Part shown: in pieces, positions 36,541-56,136 of the stretch
How positions within the stretch are numbered: the first letter of the stretch is position 1
Layout of the letters: each line of letters begins with the position of its first letter
Assembly: GCA_020849625.1 (NCBI GenBank)
Contig: JADLFV010000031.1
Location: 62,001-126,000 of the forward strand
DNA: 64,000 nucleotides
DNA from: Phycisphaeraceae bacterium
GTDB lineage: Bacteria; Planctomycetota; Phycisphaerae; Phycisphaerales; Phycisphaeraceae
Reading direction: 5' to 3'
The notes under the pieces: model-generated
What the model saw: only the letters and a program-made list of their open reading frames with translations
Told to the model about the DNA's origin: nothing
The model's database searches: none
Program-made: the position numbers and the translations under genes

Positions 36541-38361
36541 TCAATCGTACAAGCCGAGGCTGAGGCGCTTGGCTTCCAGGAGGAATTCGTCGAGGGTGTA
36601 ACCCAGTTGCATCAGACGATCGGCCTGGATGGCCAGGACGTGGCCGTCGGCCAGGACACCGAGTGCGGGTTCGACCATCCACTGAGTGTCCACGCCGTTC
36701 CACCCTGGCTTCAGGTGGCCGGTAACGACGCGGATGAGCGGGCCGGGCAGGTCGGCGGGTTTGACGAATCTCGCCATCTGCTGCTGTACGACGTCACGGT
36801 AGAAAGACTCCAGCATCAGGGCTTCAAACTGGCTCCAGTGAGGGCGATCGGCATAAGGCATGGCTTCGACATAGATGTGGCAGCCGCGGTCGCGCAGCAT
36901 GAGTGCGAAAGTCCACGCGGGATGCTCCGAACTGGCCAGCGGCGCGGCATCCAGAGCGATGCTCATGCCCGAATCCAGCGCCGGTTGCACGCTGCCCCAC
37001 GCCCGTTCGTACCATTCATCGAGCCGACCGCTTTGATACAGCGCGTCCATGCCTTCATCCAAGTACATCGAGCCGAAGTAGCAGATCACCTCGACCGGCT
37101 CGCCGTGGGTGTATTGCCCCTCCACCACCGACTTCCAGGCCTCGACAAACTCATCGGTCAGCCAGGTAACACCTTCTTCCTTTGCTTCAAGGTATTGATC
37201 GAACTGCATGACGACCGGAACAGTGGCGCCAAACGGGTTATGAATGGCGATGCGACGGACGCCCCAGTCGAGATCGGGCAGGATCTCCTGTTGCACGAAC
37301 TTCTTCCAGCCTCTTTCCTTGAGTCTCAAGCCGACCTGGCGATCTTCGATCACCAGTGAGGTGTAACCTATCTGATGCCACGAGATGAACTTCTCGCGGT
37401 CTTCCGGGGTGATATTGAGCAAGCCGATCCCGGTGTAGGATGGTTGATCGTTCGCAGGACTTGGAGTGTCGTCGGAGGAGGTGGACTCAGTTGGAGCGAG
37501 TGGGTCGGTGTTGTCCTGTGTTTTTGGGGAAGTGGTTTCGTCGATGGTTTGTGACTCGGAGTCCGATGGGGACGCGGGGTCCGCTTGCGACAAAGTCGAT
37601 TCATCGTCGGCAGCAGGTTTCTCGTCACCACCCTCATGGCCGCGGGTGGGAGCTGGTGACCCTCCGCCTCCGCTTCCACCACCACCACCGGCACTGCCGC
37701 CGCCGAGGCCGAATGACCTGCCGCCGCCACCACCGCCACCACCACTACCGCCGCTGCTGATTAGGCCGCCTGTGCGCCGGGCGATGGAGTCAGTGGAAGG
37801 TTGGACGGGTGAGTCAACCCACACATCAGATCGGATTTCGCGCGGCGGGACTTCCTCCGGCGCCTCGGCGTCAGGCGATGGTGGCGGCGTGAGAGCGAGC
37901 GGCTCCGGGTCCGTGAAGATCGCCAGCGGCTCCGGCTGCACATCGAGAGACAGCCGGTCAGCCGAAGCAGGCAATTGGTTAGCATCGCTCAAGTCGATTG
38001 AGCCGTCGGTGCCGTTGAGTTGCTTCTGCGCGTCGCCCGCGGATCGGGCGAGCGCGACGTCCAACATCGGCGGACTGTCCGTTGTCGTGGATATCGTTGA
38101 TGGTGCGGGTTCGGACAACATCGCCTGCTGTGTGTCTGCATACGCCCCGGCCGGCTGATGGCTCAGCAGCAGATACGTCGCGGCGCTCAGGGCGCTGCCG
38201 CAGAAGAGCATGGCGACAATGTGCAGCCCATTGAGGCTGATGTACCTGCCGCGCAGGCGACGGGTCCACTCAGACAGCGCGTGCCGTGGATGGCCGCGGG
38301 GGATGAAGAACGTGCCGTGCTTCACAGTTGTGTATCTCCGCCCCCTCTTCGCCAACTTCAC
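36541..38361 (-). CDS. Large membrane-anchored protein with Gly-rich linker and IHxPFG domain
   Basis: 606 aa with a GTG start at 38361; a GTG at 38325 with GGAG upstream is an alternative. A basic N-terminus and one membrane helix (about 46-66) are followed by about 250 residues of Pro/Ser/Thr/Asp-rich linker with a Gly tract (around 200-235). A folded C-terminal domain covers about 305-606. That domain matches the lipoprotein at 51419-52438: GWKK...RRIAIHNPFG, FVEAWKSV, VEVICYFGSMYLD, YERAWGSVQPALDSGMSIALDA and YVEAMPYADRPHW. Alternating strands and helices suggest a TIM-barrel-like enzyme outside the membrane. Function unknown. Confidence 0.75.
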   Translation of the reverse strand: MKLAKRGRRYTTVKHGTFFIPRGHPRHALSEWTRRLRGRYISLNGLHIVAMLFCGSALSAATYLLLSHQPAGAYADTQQAMLSEPAPSTISTTTDSPPMLDVALARSAGDAQKQLNGTDGSIDLSDANQLPASADRLSLDVQPEPLAIFTDPEPLALTPPPSPDAEAPEEVPPREIRSDVWVDSPVQPSTDSIARRTGGLISSGGSGGGGGGGGRSFGLGGGSAGGGGGSGGGGSPAPTRGHEGGDEKPAADDESTLSQADPASPSDSESQTIDETTSPKTQDNTDPLAPTESTSSDDTPSPANDQPSYTGIGLLNITPEDREKFISWHQIGYTSLVIEDRQVGLRLKERGWKKFVQQEILPDLDWGVRRIAIHNPFGATVPVVMQFDQYLEAKEEGVTWLTDEFVEAWKSVVEGQYTHGEPVEVICYFGSMYLDEGMDALYQSGRLDEWYERAWGSVQPALDSGMSIALDAAPLASSEHPAWTFALMLRDRGCHIYVEAMPYADRPHWSQFEALMLESFYRDVVQQQMARFVKPADLPGPLIRVVTGHLKPGWNGVDTQWMVEPALGVLADGHVLAIQADRLMQLGYTLDEFLLEAKRLSLGLYD

Positions 38362-38846
38362 TAAATCAACTGGTTTATCGATGCGTTACAAATGGAACGA
38401 TATGCCGACCATGTATGCAACAATATTGTGACCTGTTCAGCGAGTTTCTGCGGCAAAGTAGAGTCGTCGGCCGAGGGTCCGAGAAAAACGGCTTGATCTG
38501 CGGGCCGTCGCCCATCATTCAGGGATTCGCCGCGGGGGCGGTGGGTCGAGCATCTCTCAAGCGGTGCTCTGTCAAAAGCACGGGGTAAGCGCTGACGGCC
38601 GAGTGCCGACATAATTCGTCGAAACTAACTGGCGCATCCTGCCCCCGGGTCAGATCGAAGCTCCTGCGTACCTGACTTTGACCCTAATTCGGGTCAAAAT
38701 GCTGCAAAAAAACGTGTTCGGGTCGGCGTGATTGCTGTATGTGTGTATTAACTAACGGGTTGCGTAAAAACAGCCCGACGGTGAGCAAGCCGGTCGTCGG
38801 AATTGACGCGAAGAGGTTCGCCTCGTAGGATCGCATCGCTTTGGTT
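38362..38846. other. Gene-free spacer upstream of tRNA-Gln
   Basis: No supported gene. It holds the promoter region of the 606-aa gene and an 8-bp palindrome at 38677-38698. A degenerate motif copy GCCCCCGGG occurs at 38641. Confidence 0.6.
38677..38698. promoter_or_regulatory. Palindrome TTTGACCC-N6-GGGTCAAA
   Basis: Perfect 8-bp arms with the spacer TAATTC, 316 bp upstream of the 606-aa gene and 150 bp before tRNA-Gln. It looks like a dimeric-repressor operator; there is no T-run for termination. Confidence 0.4.
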
Positions 38847-38917
38847 AGGCCCTTGGTGTAACGGTAGCACGACTGGTTCTGGTCCAGTTAGTCGGGGTTC
38901 AAATCCCTGAGGGCCTG
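38847..38917 (+). tRNA. tRNA-Gln (CTG)
   Basis: 71 nt. The acceptor stem AGGCCCT pairs with AGGGCCT, discriminator G. The D arm is GTGT/GCAC. The anticodon stem ACTGG/CCAGT encloses the loop TTCTGGT, anticodon CTG. The T arm is CGGGG-TTCAAAT-CCCTG. CCA is not encoded. The first pair is A-U, reversed from the U-A usual in tRNA-Gln. Confidence 0.92.
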
Positions 38918-39263
38918 TTCAACGCTTCGTGGATCAACTGACTCGCCATTTCACCTCCAGGCCTGGTTTTCAGGTCATTGTGCCAACCCCCGATTTTACA
39001 AGTCGAGCCCAGCCACAGGTTCCAATCGATGCAAATTCGGGAAAAATTCGTAAATAGCCTTGGTCCTGCGGCCGTCTCGCTGTAGAGTGAAATGCACAAA
39101 AGCGAATCCTGCAGCGAGATGATCCGGGATATCTCCAAAGGCATTGCGCAGGTGAGTTGAAAGGTTTGTTTACACCTTCTCGCTCACTCCTGAAGTACGG
39201 GGAATCCCATTTACTGTTGCGTGTTGCGTTCGGGGAATTCTGCGCGCCATACGGGGAAATGAC
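38918..39263. other. Gene-free spacer upstream of SGNH-like gene
   Basis: No supported gene; an 81-codon leftward frame overlaps tRNA-Gln and is rejected. A GGGGAAATGAC ribosome site lies before the ATG at 39264. Confidence 0.6.
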
Positions 39264-40409
39264 ATGTTCAGATCATTCCGGAGCCGGGTGTGTCTGCTTT
39301 GCGCTATCACTCTGCCCGCACAGGCCATGACCACCTACCACGTGGGCAACAGCCTCACCTGGGACAGTCGTCCGATGTGGCAGGACGACTTCGCGGCCCA
39401 GAAAGGTCTGCCTGCTCACAGCGCCGCGTGGCACATCCGCTGCGGATCGTCACTGGCGGCGATCGTGGCCAATCCCACCGATGTCTGTGCGGATGCGTTG
39501 GCGCCCTACGGCCTGTTCGCCAATGCCTTGCCCAATTACGAATGGGATGCCATCACGCTCCAGTCATATCCCGGCGGCACCACCCTCGGCAGCGAAACCG
39601 CGGCCGCCCTCTCCCTGATCAACCTGGCCCGGCAGAATAACGACAACCTCGATACACCTTTCTTTCTCCTGACTGGCTGGCCTCAATCCACTGATTTCGT
39701 CAACACCTGGAATCAAACGGTTGTCGATGATGACAACACACCCACCGTCATCGCCCGACAGTATTACGAGTTGCTCCTGCAGCGCCTGCGCAATCAGACG
39801 GATGCTGATATCTACATCATTCCCAGCGGCGAAGTGCTCTATCAACTCGACCTGCGCATGCACAATGGCCAGGTGCCCGGCTTCAGCGACGTCACTCAGC
39901 TTTACCGGGACGTGCATCATCTGACCACCACCGTCGGCCGCTACGTCGCGGGCACCACCATGTTCGCTGCGCTCTACGGGATGTCACCCCAGGGCCTGAC
40001 CGATCCGGAAGTGATCCCCTCCTCCAGCCCGTACAGCCCCGAACTTTACGCTGCGCTCAACGAAGCTGTCTGGGACGTGGTGTCCGACTACCCATACAGC
40101 AACATCTTCTGCCAGCCCGGCGACGCCGACGGCGACGGCCTGGTTAACCTCGCCGACCTGCAGATCCTCGGCGATCACTGGCAATCATCGACCGCCATCT
40201 GGTCCGAGGCCGACTTCAACGGCGACGGCCTGGTCAACCTTGCCGATCTGCAGATCCTCGGCGACCACTGGGGCTATGGTGCCGGTGCGGACAGCAGCTT
40301 CGACGAAGCGCTGCAGTTGATGGGCACCCCCGTGCCCGAACCGGGCGTGATGGCGGTCGTGCTGCTGTCTCTGTGCCTATGGCACAGCCGAAAGCGGACA
40401 TGGCGTTGA
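39264..40409 (+). CDS. Secreted SGNH-hydrolase-like protein with dockerin-like and PEP-CTERM tail
   Basis: 381 aa. Signal peptide 1-21. YHVGNSLTWDSRP resembles the first block of SGNH/DUF4886 hydrolases, but the usual catalytic Ser pattern reads as the Ser of GNSL. DVHHLTTTVGRYVAG fits the C-terminal Asp-x-x-His block. Two dockerin-like calcium loops (GDADGDGLVNLADLQILGDHW and ADFNGDGLVNLADLQILGDHW) follow at about 286-345, then PVPEPG, a hydrophobic helix and a basic tail. Expected to act as a surface esterase on carbohydrate, but the substrate is unknown. Confidence 0.75.
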   Translation: MFRSFRSRVCLLCAITLPAQAMTTYHVGNSLTWDSRPMWQDDFAAQKGLPAHSAAWHIRCGSSLAAIVANPTDVCADALAPYGLFANALPNYEWDAITLQSYPGGTTLGSETAAALSLINLARQNNDNLDTPFFLLTGWPQSTDFVNTWNQTVVDDDNTPTVIARQYYELLLQRLRNQTDADIYIIPSGEVLYQLDLRMHNGQVPGFSDVTQLYRDVHHLTTTVGRYVAGTTMFAALYGMSPQGLTDPEVIPSSSPYSPELYAALNEAVWDVVSDYPYSNIFCQPGDADGDGLVNLADLQILGDHWQSSTAIWSEADFNGDGLVNLADLQILGDHWGYGAGADSSFDEALQLMGTPVPEPGVMAVVLLSLCLWHSRKRTWR

Positions 40410-40685
40410 TTGAGCCGGGTGGTTGGGCGTTGAGTGATAATCGATCAATCAGCACACTTCGCCTCACGATTCGTGATGGCAGACAGTCTCAATATCAACG
40501 TCGGCTGATCAGCCGTCCCCGCGAAATCCGACAGTCATCAAACATCGAGCCGACAACTTGCTGGGGTATCATATTGATTGCGGAGTTGCTCCGGACGTTT
40601 GGGTTGGAGCCCAATCATGTCGCGGCCGGAGTTAGCCTCGCGGATTTGGTTGAAACAATCTGTGCTGCACGTGGAGGAGACAGCC

Positions 40686-41819
40686 ATGAACCGAGTACGA
40701 ATTGTGTCGTGCCTGCTGTGTGCGTTGCTGATGGCGGGCTGGTGTGACATTGCCTGGGCCGCGGCCGCCAGTGCGAGCAACGACGTCACTTGGCGCTTTG
40801 ATGCGGACGACCTGGCGGGGATGACCGGCTCATGGTCGCTGGAGGCCCATGCCCGGGCCACGTGTTCTCACCCGATTGTTCCTGTGGATGATGATGTGGA
40901 CAGCGGCAACTGGGTGGTCGGCGGCGGGCTGGCACAGCAGGCGGTCAACGCCGCAGCCGCCTCGGGTCACGCCGCGGCCGGCGCCAACGCCACAGTGAGT
41001 GCCAATATCCCCGCTCCGTTGGGTGGATCCAATCAACTTCAATTGACTGTCTCGCACACCATTGGAGGGGCCTCGAATGCCGATCCATGCCCCATCAGCC
41101 AGGCTCACGCCAAGCGCTGGGGCAAGTCGCTGGCCGACATCGATGGCGCCACTATCACCGGTTCGCACCTCCAGGCCAGTATCGGCAACGTCACCATCAA
41201 TCGGCACAAGCACGGTGAAGCCGGGGCGATCTACTACATCTACGACGGCTATGTCCTCGACCCCGTGCAGTTGACCCTGACCGAGATCGAGACCGGCGTC
41301 ACTTACGTCGAAACCATCTGGGACGTCAACATCACCTACAGCGGACAACAGGCCGCCAGCGACTGGACCTTCAGTTCCACCGAAGGCGTGAAGCTCCAAG
41401 TCGGTCGCGATGGCGACGGCCAGATCGCATCGTCGGTGTCCATCACCGGTTCGGCTGACAGCAGTTGGCTGCTCGATCCCTATGGCGAATTCAGCGCCAC
41501 GCTCGGGGCCGGCGGCTTCAGCGCCACCGGAGCATGGGCGGCTCTGCCGTGGGTGATGACCTATGACGGAGCCGACGTGGTCAGCGTGTCACTCGATGCC
41601 AGCTACGTGCCCGATTCGTTCGACTATGCCGTGCCTGACGCGCTGATCAATCCCGCCTACAACTACGATCAGGGCGTCAACGTCGCCAACGAAGAGGAAT
41701 GCGAAGTCGTGGCGATTCCCGAACCAGCGGCGCTGTGCTTGCTGGTGCCGGGCCTGCTTGTCTTGGGCCTTCCGCGGGCTGATTGCCCAAGGGAATGGAC
41801 AACACGGTTTGAATGCTGA
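40686..41819 (+). CDS. Secreted PEP-CTERM protein, unknown domain
   Basis: 377 aa from the ATG at 40686, with GGAGGAGA seven bases upstream; a longer frame from 40578 is rejected. Signal peptide about 1-26 (MNRVRIVSCLLCALLMAGWCDIAWA). The body is beta-rich and acidic (VTWRFDADDLAGMTGSWSLEAHARATC). The C-terminus IPEPAALCLLVPGLLVLG is a PEP-CTERM-like signal, but the following tail (LPRADCPREWTTRFEC) is longer than usual. No enzymatic motif is recognised. Confidence 0.7.
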   Translation: MNRVRIVSCLLCALLMAGWCDIAWAAAASASNDVTWRFDADDLAGMTGSWSLEAHARATCSHPIVPVDDDVDSGNWVVGGGLAQQAVNAAAASGHAAAGANATVSANIPAPLGGSNQLQLTVSHTIGGASNADPCPISQAHAKRWGKSLADIDGATITGSHLQASIGNVTINRHKHGEAGAIYYIYDGYVLDPVQLTLTEIETGVTYVETIWDVNITYSGQQAASDWTFSSTEGVKLQVGRDGDGQIASSVSITGSADSSWLLDPYGEFSATLGAGGFSATGAWAALPWVMTYDGADVVSVSLDASYVPDSFDYAVPDALINPAYNYDQGVNVANEEECEVVAIPEPAALCLLVPGLLVLGLPRADCPREWTTRFEC

Positions 41820-41829
41820 ACCGCTCGGC

Positions 41830-41847
41830 GGGGCAGATTGCTGCCCC
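41830..41847 (+). terminator. Hairpin after the PEP-CTERM gene
   Basis: GGGGCAG-ATTG-CTGCCCC, a perfect 7-bp stem 11 bp after the stop codon, without a T-run. Confidence 0.45.
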
Positions 41848-41962
41848 ATGCGGCCGATCCCGCGCGCCCGGGCTTGGTTTCGAATCATCTGAACACATCG
41901 GGTACATTCTTCATACCTGACGGCCACTCTCGCCGCGGCTGGGCGCTGCGGTCGGTACACGT

Positions 41963-43087
41963 ATGAATGACCCGGCTGACAATCCGTTACGCATTCTGCA
42001 TCTGACGCTGGAGTCGGCGCACGGAGGGGCCAGTCGCTACCTGTACGATCTGTGCAGTGATATGCATCAGCGCGGCCACTTCATGGCCGTGGCGGGACAG
42101 CGCGGCGACTGGCACGCGCTGTTCGCGCAGGCCCCGTTCGAGTGGATCGATGCTCCGCTGGGAGGCGGGCCGGTGTGTTTGTGGCGGGCGGTGCGGCAAC
42201 TGCGCGGCTATGCCCGCGCTCATGACATTCAGATCGTGCACGCCCACTATCGCAAGGCCATGCTCGTGGCCCGCCGCGTGGCTGACAGCCTGCACATCCC
42301 CATGCTCAGCACGCTGCACCTGACCAACATTCCCATGGGCATCCCGTGGCGCTGGCTGAGTGACTTCGGCGACGCCACGCACGCGCCAAGCCGCTTCGCC
42401 GGCGACTGGCTGATCCATACGGCCGGGGTGGCGGCGGAGAAGATCACGGTCATTCCGCACGGCATCGATCCCGTGAAGTTTCCTTTCAGCGATCCGCAGG
42501 ATCAGCATGCAGCAAGACAGCAGTTGGCGTTGCCCGCGGAGGCGACGGTGATCGGCTACGTCGGCCGCTTCGAGCCTCACAAGCAGGTGGACTGGCTGCT
42601 TCAGATCGTGCAGCAGTTGCCGCAGGTCCATCTGTTGACGATGGGCGACGGCCCGACGTCGGAGTTGTTCGCTCAACAGGTTGCCGCCTGGAACCTCAAG
42701 CCGCGCGTGACGATGCTGTCCTACGGCGATCCGTTGCCGGTGTATCGGGCGCTCGACGTGCTTATGTTGCCGTCAGCCTATGAGGGGCTATCGCTGGTGT
42801 GCAACGAGGCGATGAGCGTGGGACGTGCCATCGCGCGGACACAGACAGCCGGCTGGCAGGAGCAGGTGATCGAAGATGAGACCGGCTGGTCGTCGCCGAT
42901 CGATTGTAAGGCGTTCATCGAACATGCAGCCAGGCGTCTGGGTGATCGCGCGGACCTTCGGCGCATGGGCGAGGCGGCCGCCCGGCACGTGCGTGAACAT
43001 CTGAGCTTCGACCGTCAGGTCGAACAGACGGTCAGCTTTTATCGTAAGCTGATCGCGGGTAAATCGATTGCCGACAAACGCCGATAA
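41963..43087 (+). CDS. Glycosyltransferase, GT4 family
   Basis: 374 aa, GT-B fold. The N-terminal Rossmann domain has LESAHGGASRYLYDL and DIQIVHAHYRKAML. The C-terminal donor domain has VIGYVGRFEPHKQVDWLL and the EX7E motif in YEGLSLVCNEAMS. It transfers a sugar from a nucleotide-sugar donor with retention, probably to the lipid-linked repeat unit at the inner face of the membrane. It is the first gene of the rightward polysaccharide run; its end touches the region just upstream of the next gene. Confidence 0.88.
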   Translation: MNDPADNPLRILHLTLESAHGGASRYLYDLCSDMHQRGHFMAVAGQRGDWHALFAQAPFEWIDAPLGGGPVCLWRAVRQLRGYARAHDIQIVHAHYRKAMLVARRVADSLHIPMLSTLHLTNIPMGIPWRWLSDFGDATHAPSRFAGDWLIHTAGVAAEKITVIPHGIDPVKFPFSDPQDQHAARQQLALPAEATVIGYVGRFEPHKQVDWLLQIVQQLPQVHLLTMGDGPTSELFAQQVAAWNLKPRVTMLSYGDPLPVYRALDVLMLPSAYEGLSLVCNEAMSVGRAIARTQTAGWQEQVIEDETGWSSPIDCKAFIEHAARRLGDRADLRRMGEAAARHVREHLSFDRQVEQTVSFYRKLIAGKSIADKRR

Positions 43088-43100
43088 TTCGGATAGCAAC

Positions 43101-44609
43101 ATGGCCACGCTTGACGTTCTGATCATCACGTACAACGAGCAGTTGAATCTGCCGCACTGCCTGGCCTCGCTGAAAGGACTGGCCCGGCAGGTGTACGTGG
43201 TGGACAGCAACTCGACTGATCGCACGGTGGCCCTGGCCCGCGAAGGCGGCGCCACGGTGCTCGAGCACCCCTGGGCCGGCTACGCCCAGCAGCGCAATTG
43301 GGCCTTGAGCAACCTGGATTTCAGCGCGGACTGGACGCTGATCCTCGACGCCGATGAGTTTATCGAACAGCCCCTGCGGCAGCGGCTTCTGGAGATCTTC
43401 AGCCAACCTGCTGAGCAGGTGCCGGAGAATGGTTTTTTCATCAACCGCCTCAGTTACTTCATGGATCAGCCGATTCGCCACTGCGGGTTCTTCCCCAGTT
43501 GGCACCTGCGGTTGTTCAAACGTGGAGCGGGCCAGTACGAGAATCGGGCGGTGCACGAGCACCTGATGGTCGATGGCAAGATCGGCTACATCCGCGAGCC
43601 GATGCTGCACCACGATCGCCGCGGCCTGGAGCACTACATCGCCAAGCACAACCGGTATTCCACGCTGGAAGCGATTCAACTGTTTCGCGACATCACCACC
43701 GGCCGCGGCGGTGAGCATCTGGTCAACGTCTCACCGACCACACGACGCAATCGCTGGCTGAAGCGGCACCTGCTGCGTCGTCTGCCCTTTGCCGGATTCT
43801 GGCGCTTTGTGTACATGTACATTCTGCGACGGGGATTTCTCGACGGCGTGGCGGGCATGGAGTTCTGCCGATTCATAGGCAACTACGACAACATGGTGGC
43901 GGTCAAGCTGCGCTACCTGCTGCGCACACGTCGCGGCGCCAGGCAGGCCGATGCCGTCACCGCCCTGGGCACCGCGGCGGTTCAGGACGATGGGCTGGTC
44001 AAAGAAGTGGAGCACAATCTGGCCAGCTCCGAGCCGGTGACGCTGGAGGATGAATCGCTGGGATCCGCCATCGTGCAGATGCGCCCGGAGCGCAGCCCGT
44101 GGAGTTTCAGGCAGAAAGTGGCGCGGGCGATATGGATGCTCATGGGCCGGCCGCTGTTCCGCATCAGCTTTCACAACTGGTACGGCTATCGCGCGGCGGT
44201 GCTGCGATTGTTCGGAGCTCGCATCGGCAAGCGGGTTTGCATCCGGCCCACGGTGCGCATCGAGATCCCCTGGAACCTGCAAATCGAAGAGGAAGCGGTC
44301 GTAGGCGACTTCGCCATCCTCTATTCCCTGGGCACCATCCACATCGGCAAGCGCACCATCGTCAGCCAGTACGCCCATCTATGTGCCGGCACGCACGACT
44401 ACACCGACCGCCGCTTTCCGCTGCTGCGCACGCCCATTCACATCGGTCACGACGTGTGGATCGGGGCTGACACCTGGGTGGGCCCCGGCGTGACCATCGG
44501 TGACCGAGCCGTGCTGGGTGCGCGGGCCAGCGCTTACAAAAATCTGCCCGCCGGCAAAGTCTATGTGGGCAACCCGGCCCGCCCAATCAAGGAACGAGTC
44601 ATACGCTGA
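43101..44609 (+). CDS. Fused GT2 glycosyltransferase and WcaF-type acetyltransferase
   Basis: 502 aa from the ATG at 43101. Residues 1-250 are a WaaE/KdtX-like GT2 (LDVLIITYNEQLNLPHCL, VVDSNSTDRT, LILDADEFIE). Residues about 330-502 are a left-handed beta-helix acetyltransferase of WcaF type: RLFGARIGKRVCIRPTVRIE, YAHLCAGTHDYTD, IGADTWVGPGVTIGDRAVLGA, VYVGNPARPIKER. The linker is about 80 polar residues. One chain would add a sugar and an O-acetyl group to the same repeat unit. The acyltransferase half is paralogous to the free-standing gene at 60974. Confidence 0.88.
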   Translation: MATLDVLIITYNEQLNLPHCLASLKGLARQVYVVDSNSTDRTVALAREGGATVLEHPWAGYAQQRNWALSNLDFSADWTLILDADEFIEQPLRQRLLEIFSQPAEQVPENGFFINRLSYFMDQPIRHCGFFPSWHLRLFKRGAGQYENRAVHEHLMVDGKIGYIREPMLHHDRRGLEHYIAKHNRYSTLEAIQLFRDITTGRGGEHLVNVSPTTRRNRWLKRHLLRRLPFAGFWRFVYMYILRRGFLDGVAGMEFCRFIGNYDNMVAVKLRYLLRTRRGARQADAVTALGTAAVQDDGLVKEVEHNLASSEPVTLEDESLGSAIVQMRPERSPWSFRQKVARAIWMLMGRPLFRISFHNWYGYRAAVLRLFGARIGKRVCIRPTVRIEIPWNLQIEEEAVVGDFAILYSLGTIHIGKRTIVSQYAHLCAGTHDYTDRRFPLLRTPIHIGHDVWIGADTWVGPGVTIGDRAVLGARASAYKNLPAGKVYVGNPARPIKERVIR

Positions 44610-44629
44610 TCCCGGTGCAGTAATATGAG

Positions 44630-45571
44630 ATGACATTGTTAGCTTCAACCGATAAGAAAAACACGATACTTTCCGCACCCGATGGCTTCGACCACCCTGT
44701 CATCGTGACAGGTACACCCCGGTCCGGCAAAACGATGACGGCGGACATCCTCGAGCAGTCGGGCGAATTCAAGTCTCTCGACGAGCCCATCATGATCTGG
44801 AACATCGGCTTTGGGCGGCGTGACGACGACAGCCGTTCCGCGGAGGAAGCCACTGCGAAATTGTGCGATGCGATTCGTTCCGCTTGTCAACACGAAATTG
44901 CTGGCATGGACGGCAAGCGATATATGGAACACCTGGCTTATCACTGCCTCCGCATCCCGTTCACCCACCGCGTGATGCCTGAGGCGCTGATTATCCATGT
45001 CATTCGTGATGCCCGCGAGGCCCTGCCGGAAATGGTGTACGGGTGGACATACCGTGACACGCTGAGTAAGGCGATCCGCCGCCGCAGTCACTCGATTCGC
45101 TTGTCATCACTGCCGTGGTTGGCGATACGTTTTGCTCGCAATTACTTCTCGTCACTGCTGCGAGGCCAACGGATGTCCTGGGGGCCGCGCGTGCCCGGTC
45201 TCAAAGATGTGACTGCCAGCGCTTCCCCGGCGATGCTGGCGGCGATGCAATGGCGATACATGAATGAAATAGCGATCCGCGATCTTAAACAGATACCCGC
45301 AACACAGGTCTTGCAGGTCCGACACGAACAGTTGATCCAGGACCCCGACCGAGAGGTGCAGCGGATTGCACGTTTTGCCCATGTCAATAACGTGGAGAAA
45401 ATGATGAGCTACGCTCGCCGTTACCTTGATCCCGACCACCAGTATTCCAAAACTGTGCCCCTGAGCGAGGCGGACTGGCAGACGGTGGCGCCGGTGATCA
45501 ATCCACTTCAAGTGAAACTGGGCTACCCCACCGTCGGCCAGGGTCATCCGCATCAGGAGAGCAACTCATGA
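44630..45571 (+). CDS. Sulfotransferase family protein
   Basis: 313 aa. The 5'-phosphosulfate loop is VTGTPRSGKTMTADIL near residue 28, followed by the DEP block. The 3'-phosphate site is IIHVIRDAREALPEM. This family transfers sulfate from PAPS to hydroxyls. It shares the order GTPRSG, DEPxMIW, HxxRxxxxxL and GPRxPG with the gene at 46369, so the two are paralogues. The next gene overlaps it by the ATGA junction. Target presumed to be the polysaccharide or its precursor. Confidence 0.8.
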   Translation: MTLLASTDKKNTILSAPDGFDHPVIVTGTPRSGKTMTADILEQSGEFKSLDEPIMIWNIGFGRRDDDSRSAEEATAKLCDAIRSACQHEIAGMDGKRYMEHLAYHCLRIPFTHRVMPEALIIHVIRDAREALPEMVYGWTYRDTLSKAIRRRSHSIRLSSLPWLAIRFARNYFSSLLRGQRMSWGPRVPGLKDVTASASPAMLAAMQWRYMNEIAIRDLKQIPATQVLQVRHEQLIQDPDREVQRIARFAHVNNVEKMMSYARRYLDPDHQYSKTVPLSEADWQTVAPVINPLQVKLGYPTVGQGHPHQESNS

Positions 45572-46287
45572 GCACTGAATCACGAGACGCCGTGCGCGAT
45601 ACCTACAGCCGGAAGGGTGATGAGTATGACGCATATCGGCAGCAGGATCCGCGCGGCGCTCTGCTGAGCAATCACGATCTGGCCCTGTTCGGTCGATTGC
45701 TGCCACCTTGCCGGGCAGGGATGCAGGCGCTGGAAGCCGGCGCGGGTACGGGAAGGTTCACGCTCGCCGTGCTGGACCGCGGATACACACTCATCGCCAC
45801 GGACATCAACGAAGCGATGTTAAACGAGTTGCGCAAAAAAATTGAACAGCGCAACCAGTCTGACCGCTGCCAAATGCAGATCGAGGACATCTTCAAGCTC
45901 TCGTTCGCGGACAATACTTTCGACCTGGTGTTCTCGCTGCACGTGATCCCGCGCTTTCTCAACCTGGAAGACCAGCGGGCAGCCCTGACCGAACTGTGCC
46001 GGACAATCAAGCCGGGCGGACAATTGCTTTTCAACTACCGCAATGCGAAGTCTGTTTATCATTGGATTCACAAGGGACACACCGCATCACCTGACCAGAT
46101 CGAGAAGATCCTCAGAGACGCCGGGATGACGGTCACACACAAACGCGGCAAGTGGTTCCTCAACCGCAGCCTCATCAACCGGGTGCCCATGTTCATCAGC
46201 CGGTGCGTTTCGCTGGTGGACCGGGCACTGGAGACGTTCTGGCCAAATCGAGCCTGGGACGTTTTCGTGCTGGCCCGAAAGAATTAA
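45568..46287 (+). CDS. Class I SAM-dependent methyltransferase
   Basis: 239 aa. SAM-binding motif I is ALEAGAGTGRFTLAVLDRG (about 51-68), motif II IATDINEAML, then NTFDLVFSLHVIPRFLN and RTIKPGGQLLFNY. It starts within the stop of the sulfotransferase, so the two are translated together. It probably methylates a sugar hydroxyl of the polymer, but the fold also serves other substrates. Confidence 0.8.
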   Translation: MSTESRDAVRDTYSRKGDEYDAYRQQDPRGALLSNHDLALFGRLLPPCRAGMQALEAGAGTGRFTLAVLDRGYTLIATDINEAMLNELRKKIEQRNQSDRCQMQIEDIFKLSFADNTFDLVFSLHVIPRFLNLEDQRAALTELCRTIKPGGQLLFNYRNAKSVYHWIHKGHTASPDQIEKILRDAGMTVTHKRGKWFLNRSLINRVPMFISRCVSLVDRALETFWPNRAWDVFVLARKN

Positions 46288-46368
46288 GCATTCGCTCACC
46301 CAATTCAAATCAAACACTCACACGCCGTCGGCAGAATGGTGATATCCGATTGCGCATGAGGTGTTGTG

Positions 46369-47310
46369 ATGGTTGGAACCATGGTGTTGCCGGACGTTTC
46401 CCGGGCACCCGTCCATGTCGTGGATAGGGGCGTGGCGGCGCCGGCAACGACCGATCCGATCGTCATTGTGGGAGCCCCGCGTTCCGGCACCACGTTTCTC
46501 GCTGAAGTGCTCAGTTGCCACCCCGACCTGCATCTGGTGGACGAGCCGCGCATGATCTGGCGCTATGGCAATGATCGAAAAAGCGACCTTCTGAAGCCTG
46601 AGGACGCCCGGCCAAAGGTGATCGCATACATCCGTAACACTTTCAAACGGCACCTGACCAAAGCCGGCAAACCCCGCCTGCTGGAGAAAACACCCAGCAA
46701 CGCTTTGCGCCTGCCTTTTGTCGAGCGGGTCTTGCCCAGCGCCCGAATCGTGCACATCATGCGCAATGGGCTGGATTCTGTGCTGTCCATAGAAAGCTTC
46801 TGGCGACGCTCCGCTCACGGCTTACGCAATGTGGCGCCCGGACGATTCTGCCAACGGCTCAAAGAACTGAGCATGCGCCGCGCGCCTTACTACGCCAGTG
46901 AACTGTTCCGCCGCACCGCACCGCTTCCGCTGCGTACCCTCATAGGCGTCAATCCCTGGGGGCCTCGCATTCCAGGCATCAACCAGATGACGCGTGAGAT
47001 GGACCTGTTGGAAATCTGCTGCCTGCAATGGCGCATGTGCGTGGAGTTGAGTTGCCAGTTCGGCCGCACATTGCCGCCTGATCGCTATTTCGAGTGTCGG
47101 CTCGAGGACATGTCGCCCCAACTAATGGAGCGCATCTTCCGATTCTGCCAGTTGCCGGAAAGCAACGCCGTCCAGTCCTTCTTCCAGAGCAGGTTTCAGC
47201 CCGATGTTCCCTCTGCCCGCAAGAGAACTGCCGACCCAGCCAAGGTCCAACAGGTGCTGCGCTGGATCGAACCCACCATGAAATGGCTCGGTTATCCCCT
47301 GCCTGATTGA
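46369..47310 (+). CDS. Sulfotransferase family protein
   Basis: 313 aa from the ATG at 46369, directly after a GTG. The PAPS loop is VGAPRSGTTFLAEVL, followed by VDEPRMIWRYG. The 3'-phosphate site is IVHIMRNGLDSVLSIESFWR. GPRIPGINQMTREM is shared with the gene at 44630. Second of three sulfotransferases in the locus. It ends 20 bp before the convergent GT4 gene. Confidence 0.85.
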   Translation: MVGTMVLPDVSRAPVHVVDRGVAAPATTDPIVIVGAPRSGTTFLAEVLSCHPDLHLVDEPRMIWRYGNDRKSDLLKPEDARPKVIAYIRNTFKRHLTKAGKPRLLEKTPSNALRLPFVERVLPSARIVHIMRNGLDSVLSIESFWRRSAHGLRNVAPGRFCQRLKELSMRRAPYYASELFRRTAPLPLRTLIGVNPWGPRIPGINQMTREMDLLEICCLQWRMCVELSCQFGRTLPPDRYFECRLEDMSPQLMERIFRFCQLPESNAVQSFFQSRFQPDVPSARKRTADPAKVQQVLRWIEPTMKWLGYPLPD

Positions 47311-47330
47311 ACGGCCGGCTTCCGCGAAGT

Positions 47331-48512
47331 TTACGCGCCGCGACCGGCAGCGACGCGCGACAGGGCCTGACGATACATGGCCTCGTACTGGTCGGCCTGC
47401 CTGTCCAGACCGAAGTGTTCCATCACCCAGGCGCGGCCACGCTCGCCCAGGGCCCGGCCGTGCGATCGATCCGCAAGCAGGGATTCGATCGCCCGGGCGA
47501 TGGCCTGCGCCTTCTGCTCCACCACCAGAGCGCCCGCCGCCTCCAGCTCCGCCCAGATGTCCGTCCCCCGCGTCGTCACCACAGCCGTGCCGCACGCCAG
47601 GGCTTCCACCAGCACCAGCCCGAAGTTCTCCTGACTGGTCGGCAGCACAAAGGCATCGGCGGCCTGATACAACGACAGCTTCAACCGGCCGTACACTTCG
47701 CCCACGAACGTCACTTGCTGCGCGACTCCCCGTTGCCGGGCCCGCAGCCGCAACTGCTCCACGTATTGATCCGGCCCCGGCCCGGCGATCAGGACTTTCA
47801 GGCCTTGGCTGGGGGCCGCCACTTCCGCCACCGCGTCGATCAAGTGCTCCAGCCCCTTCTTGGGATGCAGTCGGCTGAGAAACAGCACGGTGAACGGGCC
47901 ATCCTGGGCGAGTTCGAAGCGCTGCTGCGCCTCTTGCGGGCCGGGCAACTGCTCATACGGTTGAGTGTCCACGATATACGGTAGCACGGTCCACGCCGCG
48001 TCCGCCTGCCGCCCCGCCTGGTCGCGTTCCGCCTGAGCGGTGCATTGCACCAGCGCCGCGCCCTCCAGCAGTCGGCGGCCGCGCAGCGCCAGGTAAAGGT
48101 TCTTCTTGAAGCCCCTCTGTTGCATGCACCAGTCGTCGAGCATGCCGTGCACCGTCAGGACGTACGGCCGACCCAGACGCTTCGCCGCCTTGGCCAGGAG
48201 GGGATTCCTCAGATCCCACGGCGTGTGAATGTGCAACACCTCGGCCCATTCGAGGTGCTGTGCGATGTTGGTGGGCAAGCGGCCCCAGGGACGGAATGGA
48301 TCGACGGCAAACGCGCGTGGCTCGGCGGCTTGATCGGATCGCCATGCGTCCGGTACGTCGCTGATATCGTGAGCCAGCAGGCGCACCTGGTGTCCGGCCG
48401 TCGCCATCACCTGGACCATGTCCAGCACGGCGCGTACCACGCCGCCCCGTTCCAATCTAACCACATCCAGGTAGTGCAGCAGTTTCAGGGCCGCCACGGG
48501 CAGGGCTCCCAT
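47331..48512 (-). CDS. Glycosyltransferase, GT4 family
   Basis: 393 aa. The N-terminal domain has the acceptor loop RLERGGVVRAVLDMVQVM. The donor domain has LFLSRLHPKKGLEHLIDAV and the EX7E motif QENFGLVLVEALACG. It runs opposite to most of the cluster. It resembles the GT4 at 48826 in the donor domain (RxHPKKG, QENFG), suggesting duplication. Confidence 0.88.
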   Translation of the reverse strand: MGALPVAALKLLHYLDVVRLERGGVVRAVLDMVQVMATAGHQVRLLAHDISDVPDAWRSDQAAEPRAFAVDPFRPWGRLPTNIAQHLEWAEVLHIHTPWDLRNPLLAKAAKRLGRPYVLTVHGMLDDWCMQQRGFKKNLYLALRGRRLLEGAALVQCTAQAERDQAGRQADAAWTVLPYIVDTQPYEQLPGPQEAQQRFELAQDGPFTVLFLSRLHPKKGLEHLIDAVAEVAAPSQGLKVLIAGPGPDQYVEQLRLRARQRGVAQQVTFVGEVYGRLKLSLYQAADAFVLPTSQENFGLVLVEALACGTAVVTTRGTDIWAELEAAGALVVEQKAQAIARAIESLLADRSHGRALGERGRAWVMEHFGLDRQADQYEAMYRQALSRVAAGRGA

Positions 48513-48825
48513 TCATGGAAATCGCCGGGTTGGTCCGTCGTAGTTCCATGCGGCGCCAAGCATGATTTTGAAACGCTTTTTCCGCATGAACCGCCCTGGC
48601 AACAATGAAATGCGTTTCATGGGGGAATACTACTGCTGCCTGCTGAGGGTTGCAAATCCGATGCACCTGTGCTGTGCTACGCGCTTACGCGGCTGCGGCC
48701 GCCTGAGATCATCAGCGAATAATGATATGATTGAACATCGCGTTCAGGAACATGCGCGCGAACAATCGTCTGCGGCGGACTTCATGCCCATTGGTCCCTG
48801 CGGTGACCATTGGAACAACTCGTGC
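48513..48825. other. Divergent intergenic region between two GT4 genes
   Basis: No supported gene; an upstream extension of the 48826 frame back to 48562 is possible but unlike the family. It holds a 6-bp palindrome ATGAAA-TGCG-TTTCAT (48605-48620) and an AT-rich stretch near 48720 that could hold a promoter. Confidence 0.5.
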
Positions 48826-49983
48826 ATGCACATTCTTCATGTGATCACCAACATGAACAGCCGCGACGGCGGCCCCCCGCGTGCCCTGGTCGGATTGGCC
48901 GCTGCACAGCACGAGGCGGGCTTGCATGTTCACGTGGTCAGCGGGTTGTATCCCGACGCGCCGCCCGATCTGATCGATCCCCTGGTTCAGCGCGGCATCC
49001 CCATCACGCACCTGGGACCGGTCCGTCGTAAATCGGGATACTTGCACGGTATGGGACGTGCCCTGCGACCGCTGGTGCGACAGGCCGACATCGTTCATAT
49101 TCATTGCCTTTGGGAATGGATTCAGCACGCGGCAGCCTCTGAGGCCCGACGTTGCGGCAAGCCCTACATATTTCGACCGGCGGGCATGCTCGATCCGTAT
49201 TCGCTGCGCGCGGGTCGATGGGGCAAACGCGCATACCTGGCGTTGTTTCTACGTCGTGACTTGAATGGGGCGGCCGCGATCCATTTCACCGCCGAGATTG
49301 AGCGCGACAAGGTGAGCAAGATGGGCCTGCGTGCCCAGACCATCGTCGAGCCCAACGGCATCGAACTGGATGACTTTCGTTCCTTGCCTGCGCCGGGTTC
49401 ATTCCGGCAGCGCTATCCTCAACTTGGCGACAAGCCGATCGTGCTGTTCCTCAGCCGCGTCCATCCCAAAAAAGGCGTGGACCTGCTGATCGACGCTTTC
49501 GCGGTTGCCGAGACGGGCAACGCTGTGCTGGTGATCGCCGGGCCGGCGGATGCCGCTTACCAGCAACAGCTCGAACAACAGATCGCCCAGCGGGGTTTGA
49601 CGGACCGCGTGCTGTTCACGGGTATGCTCCACGGCCTGGAGCGCATCGAGGCCTATGTGGACGCTGACCTGTTTGTGCTGCCCAGCCACCAGGAGAACTT
49701 CGGGATTGTGGTGATCGAAGCCCTGGCGTCAGGCGTGGCGGTCCTGATCAGCGACCAGATCGACATCTGGCCCTCGATCCGCGACCATGACGTCGGCCGG
49801 GTGTTTGCGCTGCAACCGCTCGCCATCGCAGCGGCTATCGAAGCGGGCCTTGCGGATGTCCCCTGGCGACAGAGAACCGGCGAGGCAGCCCGCGCGTATG
49901 CTTTGAAGCGGTTCGATTGGCGACAGATCGCCCAGCGCTGGGCTGAGCACTACCAGCGATTGGCAGGGGCAGCCCAAACCTGA
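48826..49983 (+). CDS. Glycosyltransferase, GT4 family
   Basis: 385 aa from the ATG at 48826 (MHILHVITNMNSRDGGPPRAL), the natural start of a GT-B fold; an upstream extension is rejected. VFLSR-type donor domain: VLFLSRVHPKKGVDLLIDAF and EX7E in QENFGIVVIEALASG. It transfers a sugar from a nucleotide donor in polysaccharide assembly. Confidence 0.87.
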   Translation: MHILHVITNMNSRDGGPPRALVGLAAAQHEAGLHVHVVSGLYPDAPPDLIDPLVQRGIPITHLGPVRRKSGYLHGMGRALRPLVRQADIVHIHCLWEWIQHAAASEARRCGKPYIFRPAGMLDPYSLRAGRWGKRAYLALFLRRDLNGAAAIHFTAEIERDKVSKMGLRAQTIVEPNGIELDDFRSLPAPGSFRQRYPQLGDKPIVLFLSRVHPKKGVDLLIDAFAVAETGNAVLVIAGPADAAYQQQLEQQIAQRGLTDRVLFTGMLHGLERIEAYVDADLFVLPSHQENFGIVVIEALASGVAVLISDQIDIWPSIRDHDVGRVFALQPLAIAAAIEAGLADVPWRQRTGEAARAYALKRFDWRQIAQRWAEHYQRLAGAAQT

Positions 49984-50101
49984 CCCGATGACCGGAACCT
50001 GGACTGCCAGAGACAGTAGAATATCGACCCCTGACGGGAAGATTGGAACCGGACTGGCCGGGAATCCCATTTGATCTGCAAAACTGACCGATGAATGACT
50101 T

Positions 50102-51403
50102 ATGGCCTACGTGATTGCGATCTATCTGGTTTGCCTGGCCCTGCTGCTGATGCTGTACATCTGGTTGCAGTACCGCAGCCGCCGACGCGACCTGCTGTGC
50201 CTGCGCAATATCTTTCTGGTCGGGTTCATCCTCTTCCAACTGACCAGTCCGGCCCTCTCGCTGTGGCTCATGAACTTCGGCAAGATGCCCGTGATGTATC
50301 CGGTGAAGACCGGAATCATCTATTCGATCATGGCCACCCTGTTCCTGATCCTGTTCATGGTGGCCTACCACAAGTGCAACTTTCTGACCAAATGGGCCCA
50401 CAAGGTCAAAATGCCCGCGCCCGTACCGGACAACTTCCTGCTGGCCATGCTGAGCCTGATGTTTCTGGCCACCAGCGCCTTGTTGTGCCTGGTGGTGAAG
50501 ATTCCTTACGTATTCTTCTTGTCGGTGATGTTGGGCGTCGGTTGTGCCGGGATTGCGGCAGGATTGATCAGTTGGTTGTGGGCCCGCAGGCCGTGGAACC
50601 TGCCGTTGCTGGTTCTGACGATCATCATTGTTCTGGTGGCCATGGCTCTGAGCGTCACCGGGGCTTTCGGGCGGCGCCCGCTGGTGACGGTGGCGATGGC
50701 GGTGCTGGTGGCCTGCTACTTCGCCAACTGGCGTTACCGGCCACCTCACAAGATCATGATTCAGTTTATCGTGATCTCCCTGCTGGGCACGGTGGTGCTC
50801 AGCTACTACACCGCCGCCCGCGATCCGGGTGAACACAAACGCTCCGCGATGCAGCACTTTCAAGCCATGATGACTGCGAATCCGACCAAAGGTCTTCTGG
50901 ACCTGATGGCCGGCCAAAACACCGGGTCCAACTCCTTCTGGCTGATCGAGAATTTCCCCAAGCAACATCCCTATCGTTGGTTCATGACCGTACGCGGTGT
51001 CATCGAGTATCCGATCCCGCGGAATCTCTATACGTCCAAGCCGGAAGGTCTCGGCATATTGATCCCAACCTACATCCGGCAATACGGCGTGGCACTGGGT
51101 CAATTTAATGTCGGACCTGGCATCATCGGACACGCCGCAGCCGAGGGCGGATTCCCACCTTTGATCGTGTATGCCTTGCTTTATGGCATGCTGCTGCGAT
51201 TCCTGGATGACCTGCTGGCTATTCACAGTGGTTCGGTCCTGGCGGTGTTGGTCCTGTTCAGCGCAGCGGGGCAAACCCTGGCCGTACCGCGAGGCGAATC
51301 ATCCTCCTTCACGTTCATCTGGCTGTTCACCGTTGTAAGCACATGGGTTGTAGCACGGTTGTACGGCAACATGGCGCGCTTGTTCGCAGCACCTGCGTCG
51401 TAA
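50102..51403 (+). CDS. Wzy-like polysaccharide polymerase / O-antigen ligase-type membrane protein
   Basis: 433 aa with about ten to eleven membrane helices and one large loop (about 240-340) containing GQNTGSNSFWLIENFPKQHPY and RYTSKPEG-like polar sequence. The topology and place in a GT/flippase cluster fit a Wzy polymerase, whose sequences are poorly conserved. It would join repeat units on the periplasmic face. The family assignment is inference from topology and neighbours. The next gene begins 15 bp later. Confidence 0.6.
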   Translation: MAYVIAIYLVCLALLLMLYIWLQYRSRRRDLLCLRNIFLVGFILFQLTSPALSLWLMNFGKMPVMYPVKTGIIYSIMATLFLILFMVAYHKCNFLTKWAHKVKMPAPVPDNFLLAMLSLMFLATSALLCLVVKIPYVFFLSVMLGVGCAGIAAGLISWLWARRPWNLPLLVLTIIIVLVAMALSVTGAFGRRPLVTVAMAVLVACYFANWRYRPPHKIMIQFIVISLLGTVVLSYYTAARDPGEHKRSAMQHFQAMMTANPTKGLLDLMAGQNTGSNSFWLIENFPKQHPYRWFMTVRGVIEYPIPRNLYTSKPEGLGILIPTYIRQYGVALGQFNVGPGIIGHAAAEGGFPPLIVYALLYGMLLRFLDDLLAIHSGSVLAVLVLFSAAGQTLAVPRGESSSFTFIWLFTVVSTWVVARLYGNMARLFAAPAS

Positions 51404-51418
51404 CTCGAGCACACAGTC

Positions 51419-52438
51419 ATGCTCATGTGCCTCAAACACCTATGTGTGATTTGCAGCCTGTGCGTGCTGGTGGACTGCGGGTCCAGCCAGGGACAACAGA
51501 ACGATCCACAACCGCAAGCACCGCATCCGACTGTGCAGTCCCGGGATCGGGCCCGGGTAGTTCACTGGATGCAGTTTGGTCCGTTTAATGAGCCGCGCCC
51601 ACTGCGGGACACGGTGCATCGCAACGGCTGGAAAGGTGTGGTGCGCGAGCTTGAGCCGGTGTTCAAGTGGTTCCGCGACGCCGGGCAGACGCCGCGCATC
51701 ATGATCCATACGCCGTTCGGCTACGGGGATGGTCCGGCCATGGACTATGATGCCTACTTGCGGGCAAGGCAGAACAAGGCCCATGAATGGATCTACAGCG
51801 ACTTTGTCGAAGCGTGGCAACCGCTGACCGACCCGCAAGCGAAGGATCGAATCGATCTGGTCTGCTACGTGGGCGCCATTGCGCTTGACCCGGATATGAA
51901 AAAGTATCTGGAACCGGATGAATCTGGACAGGTTGATCTGGCGACCTGGCGGGCGCGGGCCATGGAGAGTCTGCAACCGTTCCTGGAGGCGGGGGCCTCG
52001 ATCGGCTTCGATGCCAGTTCGGGCATCGACCCGGACTCAATCGAAGGTCAATTCATACTGAGTATCGACCGAATGTTCCAGCAGGAGGGCCTGGGAAGAT
52101 ACATCCTCATCGAAGCCCTGCCGCACAAACCCTATGCCCGCTGGTGTGACTTTCGCGTCATCATGGCCAGCACCTACTGGGAGGACCGCAGCGCGAAATG
52201 GCTCAAGTTCGGCAAGCTGAACTTCGGCCCCGATCAGATTCAGCAGGAAGTGTGGATGTTGATCAACATGCCGCCGTCGGGTGAAACCTGGGATACACTG
52301 GCCCGGTGGAATGCCCCATACACGCGACAATGGCTCGAACAGGGTTACACCTGCTGCACCAGGGTGCCGAGGTTGATCGACGCGGGAGTGAGCTACGATG
52401 ACCTGTTCACTTCATCCCCGAACGCAGCCGTACCTTGA
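51419..52438 (+). CDS. Putative lipoprotein with IHxPFG domain, unknown function
   Basis: 339 aa. A short hydrophobic start ends in LVDCGSS (lipobox-like). A linker of about 20 residues precedes a domain of about 290. Blocks shared with the C-terminal domain of the 606-aa protein at 36541-38361 are GWK...IMIHTPFG, FVEAWQPL, IDLVCYVGAIALD, WRARAMESLQPFLEAGASIGFDA, and YILIEALPHKPYARW. The regular strand/helix order and conserved acidic residues suggest a TIM-barrel enzyme. Placed between the Wzy-like and Wzx-like genes, it may process or anchor the polymer in the envelope. Confidence 0.7.
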   Translation: MLMCLKHLCVICSLCVLVDCGSSQGQQNDPQPQAPHPTVQSRDRARVVHWMQFGPFNEPRPLRDTVHRNGWKGVVRELEPVFKWFRDAGQTPRIMIHTPFGYGDGPAMDYDAYLRARQNKAHEWIYSDFVEAWQPLTDPQAKDRIDLVCYVGAIALDPDMKKYLEPDESGQVDLATWRARAMESLQPFLEAGASIGFDASSGIDPDSIEGQFILSIDRMFQQEGLGRYILIEALPHKPYARWCDFRVIMASTYWEDRSAKWLKFGKLNFGPDQIQQEVWMLINMPPSGETWDTLARWNAPYTRQWLEQGYTCCTRVPRLIDAGVSYDDLFTSSPNAAVP

Positions 52439-52460: not shown

Positions 52461-54008
52461 TCAGCTTCCCTCCGATTCTGCCTGTGAGCGCCGGGCAAAT
52501 TGCATCAACCGTCCAGCCAGCCGACGCAAGTGCTGGCGCTCTTCATCCGACATGCCGATCTGCCAGCCCAGCAGCCCCAGTATCAGTGTGCTGGACCCGG
52601 TCACCAGTGTCAGCCGCCACAGCGACGGATCCATCACCAGCCTCCAGAACGCCGCCGCCGCCAGGGAACTCAGCGTGCACACGGTCACCGGAATCGCCAC
52701 CTTCACCATCCAGTGGCCCAGGCCGTGACCGGTCAGACGCTTGGCCCAGGCGATGCTGAAAAGCGTTTCCGCCAGGCTGCCGATGGCCGCCACGATCGCC
52801 ACCCATTCCGGCGAACAACCCACCGCCAGCACCGCCACGCTGGCCGCCAGCGAGACCAACATCAAACCGTTCAATATCAGAGAAAAGCCGCGAATCCGTC
52901 CGATGGCGTAAATCACGTTCTGCTCGCCACGCGACAACTGGGTCAACGTGGCCCCAATCATTAACCAGACGCAGAAAGGCGATGAGAAAGGCGGAGGGTC
53001 CTTCAGCCACATGACCAGGACGTAAGACGCCTCAACAGAGAACGGCACCAGGATCAGCACGCTGGCCAGGGTACACAGGCGACTGGTGGCGTCGGCCAGG
53101 CGCAGCGAAGCGTCACGCTTGCCCGCGCCCTCGATGGTGGTGGCGGCTGGAAGCGCCGCGCGGTTGATGCCCAGACTGAGTAGGTACTGTGCACCCTGCA
53201 CCTGAATGGCCACGCCCCAACCGGCATTGAGCAGCGTGCCGTGGAAGAGGTTGAGGATCAGGTTCGAGCCTTGAATCCTCGCTCGAACGGTCAGCGCAGC
53301 CAAAAATGTCCACACGGCATAGCTGAACAACTCCCGCAGCAGCCCCCTGCGGTAAAGTCGCAGCTTCGGCCAGGCCTCCTCAAAACGGGCCATGCACCAG
53401 AAGGTGCGCAACAGCATCACCAGCATCGTCAATACGCCGGTCAGAAGGCCGAACCATATCAAGCGATCGCCCGGCAACACGTACAGCAGCAGCACGACCC
53501 CCAGCTTGCCCACCGCGTAGGTGATGTCCACCACCGACACCAGGATGATCTCCTGCCTTGCAAAAAGCAGCCCCATCCACGGCGAGTTCCAGATGATGAA
53601 CACCATTGACAGTAGCAGCGAGTAATAGACCCAGTATCCCGCCACCTCGCGGCCGGGCGGAATGGTCAGCACTGCCATCAGCGGCGGCCCGACCAATGCC
53701 CCAATGAGCAGCGCCACCACGCCGCTCACGGTGTACATGACACAAGCCGTAGCGAAACACGTGTCGATCGATTGGCGGTCTCCGCGGCCGATTTCATAGG
53801 CAAGATGACGCTGGGCGCTCATGGTCAATGCGCCCTCAATCACCAGCGTCAGGCTCAGCCCGGCGCCCAGCAACACGTACAGGCCGTAATCTGACTGGCC
53901 CAGCGTGTCCAGCAAAAGGCGCAGCACCAGGAAACTGATCACGATGTTGAACGCGATCCGCACGTAGGTGGCGGTGCTGTTGACGATCAGAAGGGTGGAC
54001 TGTTGCAT
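52461..54008 (-). CDS. Wzx-like polysaccharide flippase
   Basis: 515 aa with about twelve to fourteen membrane helices in the MATE/MOP-type arrangement of the polysaccharide flippases. Features include VNSTATYVRIAFNIVISFLVLRLLLDTLG, YGLYVLLGAGLSL and a conserved GLxxMI-like core. It would move the lipid-linked repeat unit to the outer leaflet. Its stop faces the IHxPFG gene end 22 bp away. Confidence 0.85.
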   Translation of the reverse strand: MQQSTLLIVNSTATYVRIAFNIVISFLVLRLLLDTLGQSDYGLYVLLGAGLSLTLVIEGALTMSAQRHLAYEIGRGDRQSIDTCFATACVMYTVSGVVALLIGALVGPPLMAVLTIPPGREVAGYWVYYSLLLSMVFIIWNSPWMGLLFARQEIILVSVVDITYAVGKLGVVLLLYVLPGDRLIWFGLLTGVLTMLVMLLRTFWCMARFEEAWPKLRLYRRGLLRELFSYAVWTFLAALTVRARIQGSNLILNLFHGTLLNAGWGVAIQVQGAQYLLSLGINRAALPAATTIEGAGKRDASLRLADATSRLCTLASVLILVPFSVEASYVLVMWLKDPPPFSSPFCVWLMIGATLTQLSRGEQNVIYAIGRIRGFSLILNGLMLVSLAASVAVLAVGCSPEWVAIVAAIGSLAETLFSIAWAKRLTGHGLGHWMVKVAIPVTVCTLSSLAAAAFWRLVMDPSLWRLTLVTGSSTLILGLLGWQIGMSDEERQHLRRLAGRLMQFARRSQAESEGS

Positions 54009-55962: not shown

Positions 55963-56136
55963 CAATCGACATCCCTGTTTGGCCTCCGGATTCCGATAAG
56001 CCCCAGCATAACAGGTCATGAAGGTCCTGCCGGCGGTTATCAAAAATCAAAGCGGAAGGCATGATACGGGCATTGATTATATTTTTCGTCATTTACGAAT
56101 GCGTCGGAAAGCCATTTCTGCGAATTATTTGCAAGT

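Follow-up and report, generated by a model that had tools for sequence, protein, structure and literature searches.

The Two Proteins and Their Locus

Why gene clusters that make a polymer also carry enzymes that cut polymers has been elusive even in Pseudomonas (PMC9075953). A similar question is raised by a polysaccharide locus of a Phycisphaeraceae bacterium, analyzed here in a stretch of 64,000 nucleotides (the window): what is the role of a 339-aa protein whose gene (51419..52438, plus strand) directly follows that of a polymerase, and how is it related to the 606-aa protein encoded at 36541..38361? Both open reading frames were confirmed at these coordinates. The first-pass annotation had placed the 606-aa gene correctly but left its strand unstated; the gene runs from 38361 to 36541 on the minus strand.

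The 339-aa protein is predicted to contain one (β/α)8 barrel (aa ~45-335), and the 606-aa protein to carry its barrel at the C-terminus (aa ~310-606). Homology between the former and the last ~300 residues of the latter had been proposed from ordered motif blocks, and this proposal held in both respects: BLASTP aligned the two over 301 aa with 27% identity and 45% positives (E=2e-24), and all of the blocks were found in the alignment, including RIMIHTPFG/RIAIHNPFG, FVEAW, VCYVGxxxLD/ICYFGxxxLD, W..RAxxSxQPxLxxGxSIxxDA, and I(L/Y)(I/V)EA(L/M)P. With the 339-aa protein as query, tblastn against the whole genome also recovered the 606-aa gene (E=2e-22). The likeness is thus far beyond chance.

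A gap of 15 bp separates the 339-aa gene from the upstream gene of the polymerase, a Wzy-like oligosaccharide repeat unit polymerase (50102..51403, plus strand). By hydropathy the polymerase has 10 predicted transmembrane segments with a long loop between the seventh and eighth, and 4 of 12 homologues matched TIGR04370 (best E-value, 3.7e-6). On the other side lies a candidate Wzx-like flippase (52461..54008, minus strand), also with 10 transmembrane segments predicted by hydropathy; it had no Pfam match of its own. The remaining polysaccharide locus (41963..49983) contains glycosyltransferases, a GT2 fusion described below, two sulfotransferases, and, from reading the sequence, a methyltransferase-like gene. 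From 41963 to ~61 kb, the window holds glycosyltransferases, a fusion of GT2 with a hexapeptide-repeat acyltransferase (43068-44609), and three sulfotransferases (44630-45571, 46366-47310, and 55201-56043), which suggest a sulfated polymer. Two neighboring genes encode proteins with C-terminal PEP-CTERM-like tails: one at 39264-40409 (tail VPEPGVMAVVLLSLCLWHSRKRTWR), which also contains a dockerin type I domain, and one at 40578-41819 (tail IPEPAALCLLVPGLLVLG), which adjoins the polysaccharide locus.

Predicted Fold and Invariant Residues

With good confidence, AlphaFold2 modeled the 339-aa protein as a full (β/α)8 barrel (pLDDT 86.0, pTM 0.83), with strands at 47-52, 93-97, 146-151, 194-197, 229-232, 246-250, 278-281, and 311-314. 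The C-terminal domain of the 606-aa protein (aa 295-606; 36544..37479, minus strand) was likewise modeled as a full barrel (pLDDT 92.7, pTM 0.89), in agreement with the TIM-barrel fold that had been suggested for both proteins. Among the 27 family sequences assembled here (see below), two alignment methods showed Y150, G152, D198, and E232 to be the sole residues invariant in all members. In the 339-aa model, Y150 closes β3 (codon 51866..51868, plus strand), D198 closes β4 (52010..52012, plus strand), and E232 closes β5 (52112..52114, plus strand). The conserved Asp/Glu pair that the first-pass annotation had recommended looking for at the barrel ends is represented by D198 and E232, both at the C-terminal end of the barrel. 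Their equivalents in the 606-aa protein, by alignment, are D471 (36949..36951, minus strand) and E499 (36865..36867, minus strand); these codons were checked in the sequence.

Comparison with PDB structures placed both models among TIM barrels, with Z-scores of up to 12.4 and 12.8, and a viral structure library gave no match at E<=0.001. The fold by itself names no function because glycosidases of families GH29, GH13, and GH20 were tied with dihydropteroate synthase at Z 11.7-12.8. It is improbable that these proteins are metal-dependent, sugar-modifying barrels of the epimerase or isomerase type. Such a role would make ligands of the Asp, Glu, and His at the strand ends (H97, D198, and E232), and tagatose epimerases and xylose/rhamnose isomerases did appear in the Foldseek lists. 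However, H97 was kept in just 22 of the 27 members, and the epimerase and isomerase matches were no better than those to many other barrels. In the favored reading, a glycosidase site with a retaining mechanism, D198 would act as the nucleophile and E232 as the general acid/base, and Y150, H97, and the residue after H97 would line the active site.

Members, Domain Architecture, and Probable Export

The family had been described as occurring twice, which proved too narrow: 25 further members were found beyond the two proteins, and a profile search revealed a third, divergent copy elsewhere in the genome of the window. BLAST matches were obtained in 8 of 61 genomes of relatives, and profile searches yielded 9 genomes out of 397 of the class and 3 out of 392 of the phylum; all of these profile-matched genomes belong to the class of the window's genome. 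A few percent of genomes carry the family, and every one of them belongs to the same class (Phycisphaerae-type planctomycetes); one member comes from the record of a Phycisphaeraceae metagenome assembly. A search of genome contigs with a single protein query matched only a genome already known, and a search of plasmids and viral contigs with one query gave no family relatives.

Members range from ~265 to more than 950 aa in length, and the most divergent share 17-20% identity with the 339-aa protein. In the phylogenetic tree, the 606-aa domain clustered with members from exopolysaccharide loci of related genera (support 92/86), and the 339-aa protein formed a long branch of uncertain placement; the two are therefore old paralogues and not the products of a recent duplication. 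The domain shared by the two proteins matched neither Pfam nor NCBIfam, no Pfam match above noise was found in the wider family, and a sequence search of the PDB gave zero matches. These searches agree with the earlier statement that no named family has such motifs, and a confident HMM match to a known glycoside hydrolase or other family, which would have spoken against it, was not found.

The N-terminal modules of members include dockerin (L029, and weakly L012), PA14 (L021), and SdrD-B repeats (L019 and L028), and Gly-rich linkers occur in L006 and L010. Dockerin, PA14, and SdrD-B modules are often found on extracellular carbohydrate-active proteins. Two members, both with SdrD-B repeats, are encoded in tandem (L049, 9612-11537 and 11551-14427), with no polymerase in the 20 kb fetched. 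The N-terminal regions of three otherwise different members (L012, L028, and L031) share a short LEPRVLLSA-type motif, which is possibly a planctomycete surface-protein signal.

The 339-aa protein begins with a hydrophobic segment (aa 2-20, by hydropathy) that is likely an export signal. It had been taken for a lipoprotein, but none of its five N-terminal cysteines fits the Prosite-type lipobox pattern that was applied ([LIVMFWSTAG]2-[LIVMFYSTAGCQ]-[AGS]-C); the nearest is VLVDC, which has Asp at position -1. The 606-aa protein has a hydrophobic helix at aa 48-66 (38164..38220, minus strand), which, judged from its sequence, could be either a cleavable signal peptide (...AGAYA|D) or a membrane anchor. 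Between this helix and the barrel lies a Ser/Gly/Pro-rich region of low complexity (~240 aa), the Gly-rich part of which spans aa 197-238 (37648..37773, minus strand). Family members probably reach the periplasm or the cell surface, as judged from the hydrophobic N-termini of most and the extracellular modules of several; a few divergent members have no obvious export signal.

Linkage to the Polymerase and a Second Barrel Family

The association with polysaccharide genes recurs well outside the window, which supports the earlier idea that these barrel proteins are tied to polysaccharide loci. A family member directly adjoins a Wzy-like polymerase in 10 of 14 family-bearing genomes (the window, L039, L041, L042, L044, L048, L051, L053, L054, and L090), and the remaining four are without a neighboring polymerase. 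Among the 61 relatives, the polymerase was present in 8 of the 9 genomes with the family (a count that includes G051, detected by profile) vs. 8 of the 52 others (Fisher p=3e-5). Homologues of the flippase candidate adjoin the family in L039, L041, and L044, six other loci of the family gave BLAST matches to the GT2/acyltransferase fusion, and family loci also encode a Wzc-type kinase (L041), glycosyltransferases, flippases, and sulfotransferases.

Three genomes (G040, G048, and G060) contained the polymerase and no detected family member; there, the neighbor is a protein without a Pfam match, here termed A7. The A7 alignment was widened by a genome-wide search that was not conditioned on the polymerase. 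Of 298 genomes of the class, 18 matched the A7 profile. In hhalign, A7 aligned with the family at 95.6% probability (E=1.3e-8) over 238 columns of the barrel, and at 93.9% when the 606-aa domain headed the alignment, whereas other barrels compared in the same way as controls gave 0.5-4.6%. This significant profile-profile similarity over the barrel places A7 and the family in one superfamily. The conserved Asp and Glu of A7 fall on the corresponding strands, align with D198 and E232, and are kept in nearly all A7 rows. In eight further genomes (L092, L093, L094, L113, L153, L155, L159, and L165), A7 adjoins the same polymerase or lies within ~3 kb of it, and L088 gave a weak match in this neighborhood survey; for many other A7 genes (e.g., L154, L156-L158, and L161-L164), the stretch fetched contained no polymerase. 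Unlike the family, A7 proteins (such as L093:9906-11582, L092:9891-11882, and L094:6935-8794) have an extra N-terminal region in front of the barrel, carry WWGRS in place of the YxG motif, and lack IHNPFG.

These data also bear on whether the barrel is catalytic. A dead or non-catalytic barrel could bind the polymer and assist the polymerase, export, or surface attachment, and the tight polymerase linkage, the long linkers, and the structural look of the dockerin, PA14, and SdrD-B fusions are consistent with such a role. We consider it unlikely: all 27 members retain D198 and E232 although their sequences have otherwise largely diverged, and the remote A7 family has the equivalent residues in nearly all rows. 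In a broader, tentative proposal, the family and A7 would together form a new clan, one of retaining glycosidases linked to the polymerase, with a slot beside the Wzy-like polymerase in Phycisphaerae exopolysaccharide loci. It is possible, if doubtful, that this slot holds either of two long-diverged barrel branches controlling the chain length of (probably sulfated) planctomycete exopolysaccharides.

Comparison with Known Glycoside Hydrolases

Retaining GH13 enzymes (clan GH-H) have an Asp nucleophile at the end of β4 and a Glu acid/base at the end of β5. A weak hhalign alignment places D198 and E232 at or near these GH13 catalytic residues. The family lacks the remaining conserved regions of GH13. 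On β7, where GH13 also has an Asp, no Asp is invariant in the family. GH13 (PF00128), which was suggested by the structure lists, was rejected with 0.6% in hhalign and no Pfam match, and so was GH29 (PF01120), whose structures are among the top tied matches, with 1.9% and no Pfam match. GH114 (PF03537) was suggested by the YxG motif and a single match at E=0.25, in 1 of 27 members and short of the curated cut-off of Glyco_hydro_114; an hhalign comparison with 15 GH114 sequences gave 4.6%, and GH114 was rejected as the family. GH114 sites have an Asp nucleophile and a Glu acid/base in a TIM barrel; the family has a predicted barrel and an invariant Asp/Glu, which are putative counterparts of that pair.

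The hydrolase domain of PelA (GH166), Ega3 (GH114), Sph3 (GH135), and GH191 are TIM barrels that use Asp as the nucleophile and Glu as the acid/base, both located where the barrel strands end on the C-terminal side, and enzymes of this type are linked to the exopolysaccharides Pel and galactosaminogalactan (PMC12054363). The family resembles them in its predicted barrel with Asp and Glu and in its exopolysaccharide link. Those enzymes have a β3 insertion. The loci described here are of the Wzx/Wzy type, and the profile comparison with GH114 showed no similarity (the 4.6% given above). No PDB sequence match to GH135, GH166, or GH191 was obtained from the family. Exopolysaccharide clusters frequently include genes for hydrolases; one is PslG in the psl operon of Pseudomonas aeruginosa, a glycosyl hydrolase located at the inner membrane and in the periplasm with the glutamates E165 and E276 as its catalytic pair (PMC9075953). 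The family is likewise encoded in exopolysaccharide loci, but its proposed pair is Asp (β4) and Glu (β5), and it has no Pfam glycoside-hydrolase match.

A retaining site could also transfer instead of hydrolyzing. The fold, location, and conserved carboxylates would also fit an exported enzyme that serves the locus as a transglycosylase or that ligates its polymer to an acceptor such as a surface protein; retaining sites are capable of transglycosylation, and weak transglycosylation has been reported for GH114 (PMC12054363). The sequence does not distinguish transfer from hydrolysis. In exopolysaccharide loci, hydrolases are better documented as partners, and transfer is considered unlikely.

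Proposed Function and Significance

The family proteins are probably polymer-cutting or polymer-trimming enzymes because they are barrel-shaped, probably exported, and repeatedly encoded beside a polymerase gene. The explanation that we favor, with moderate confidence, is a new family of exported (β/α)8-barrel proteins, glycoside hydrolases or close relatives of these, that act on the exopolysaccharide of their own Wzx/Wzy-type locus. The homology of the two proteins, both barrel models, the invariant Y150, G152, D198, and E232, the polymerase adjacency, the A7 family, the extracellular modules, and the precedent of exopolysaccharide hydrolases all argue for hydrolysis. Against it stand the absence of a profile link to GH114, GH29, or GH13 among those tested, the structure matches tied with unrelated barrels, the four genomes without a neighboring polymerase, the few divergent members with no obvious export signal, and the presence of two copies per locus, which trimming does not obviously need. 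The fold and the genomic link are well supported; we infer the export of each protein, catalysis, the retaining mechanism, the substrate, and the site of action. The polymerase-adjacent copy would shorten chains or remove polymer that has stalled in the periplasm, and the copy with the long Gly/Ser-rich linker may extend farther into the envelope or matrix.

A literature search returned no description of Phycisphaerae exopolysaccharide loci of this type. The family offers a testable, unnamed group of putative enzymes for which catalytic residues are predicted, the genomic slot is defined, and two branches that have diverged are known, and it could also yield tools for cutting sulfated polysaccharides.
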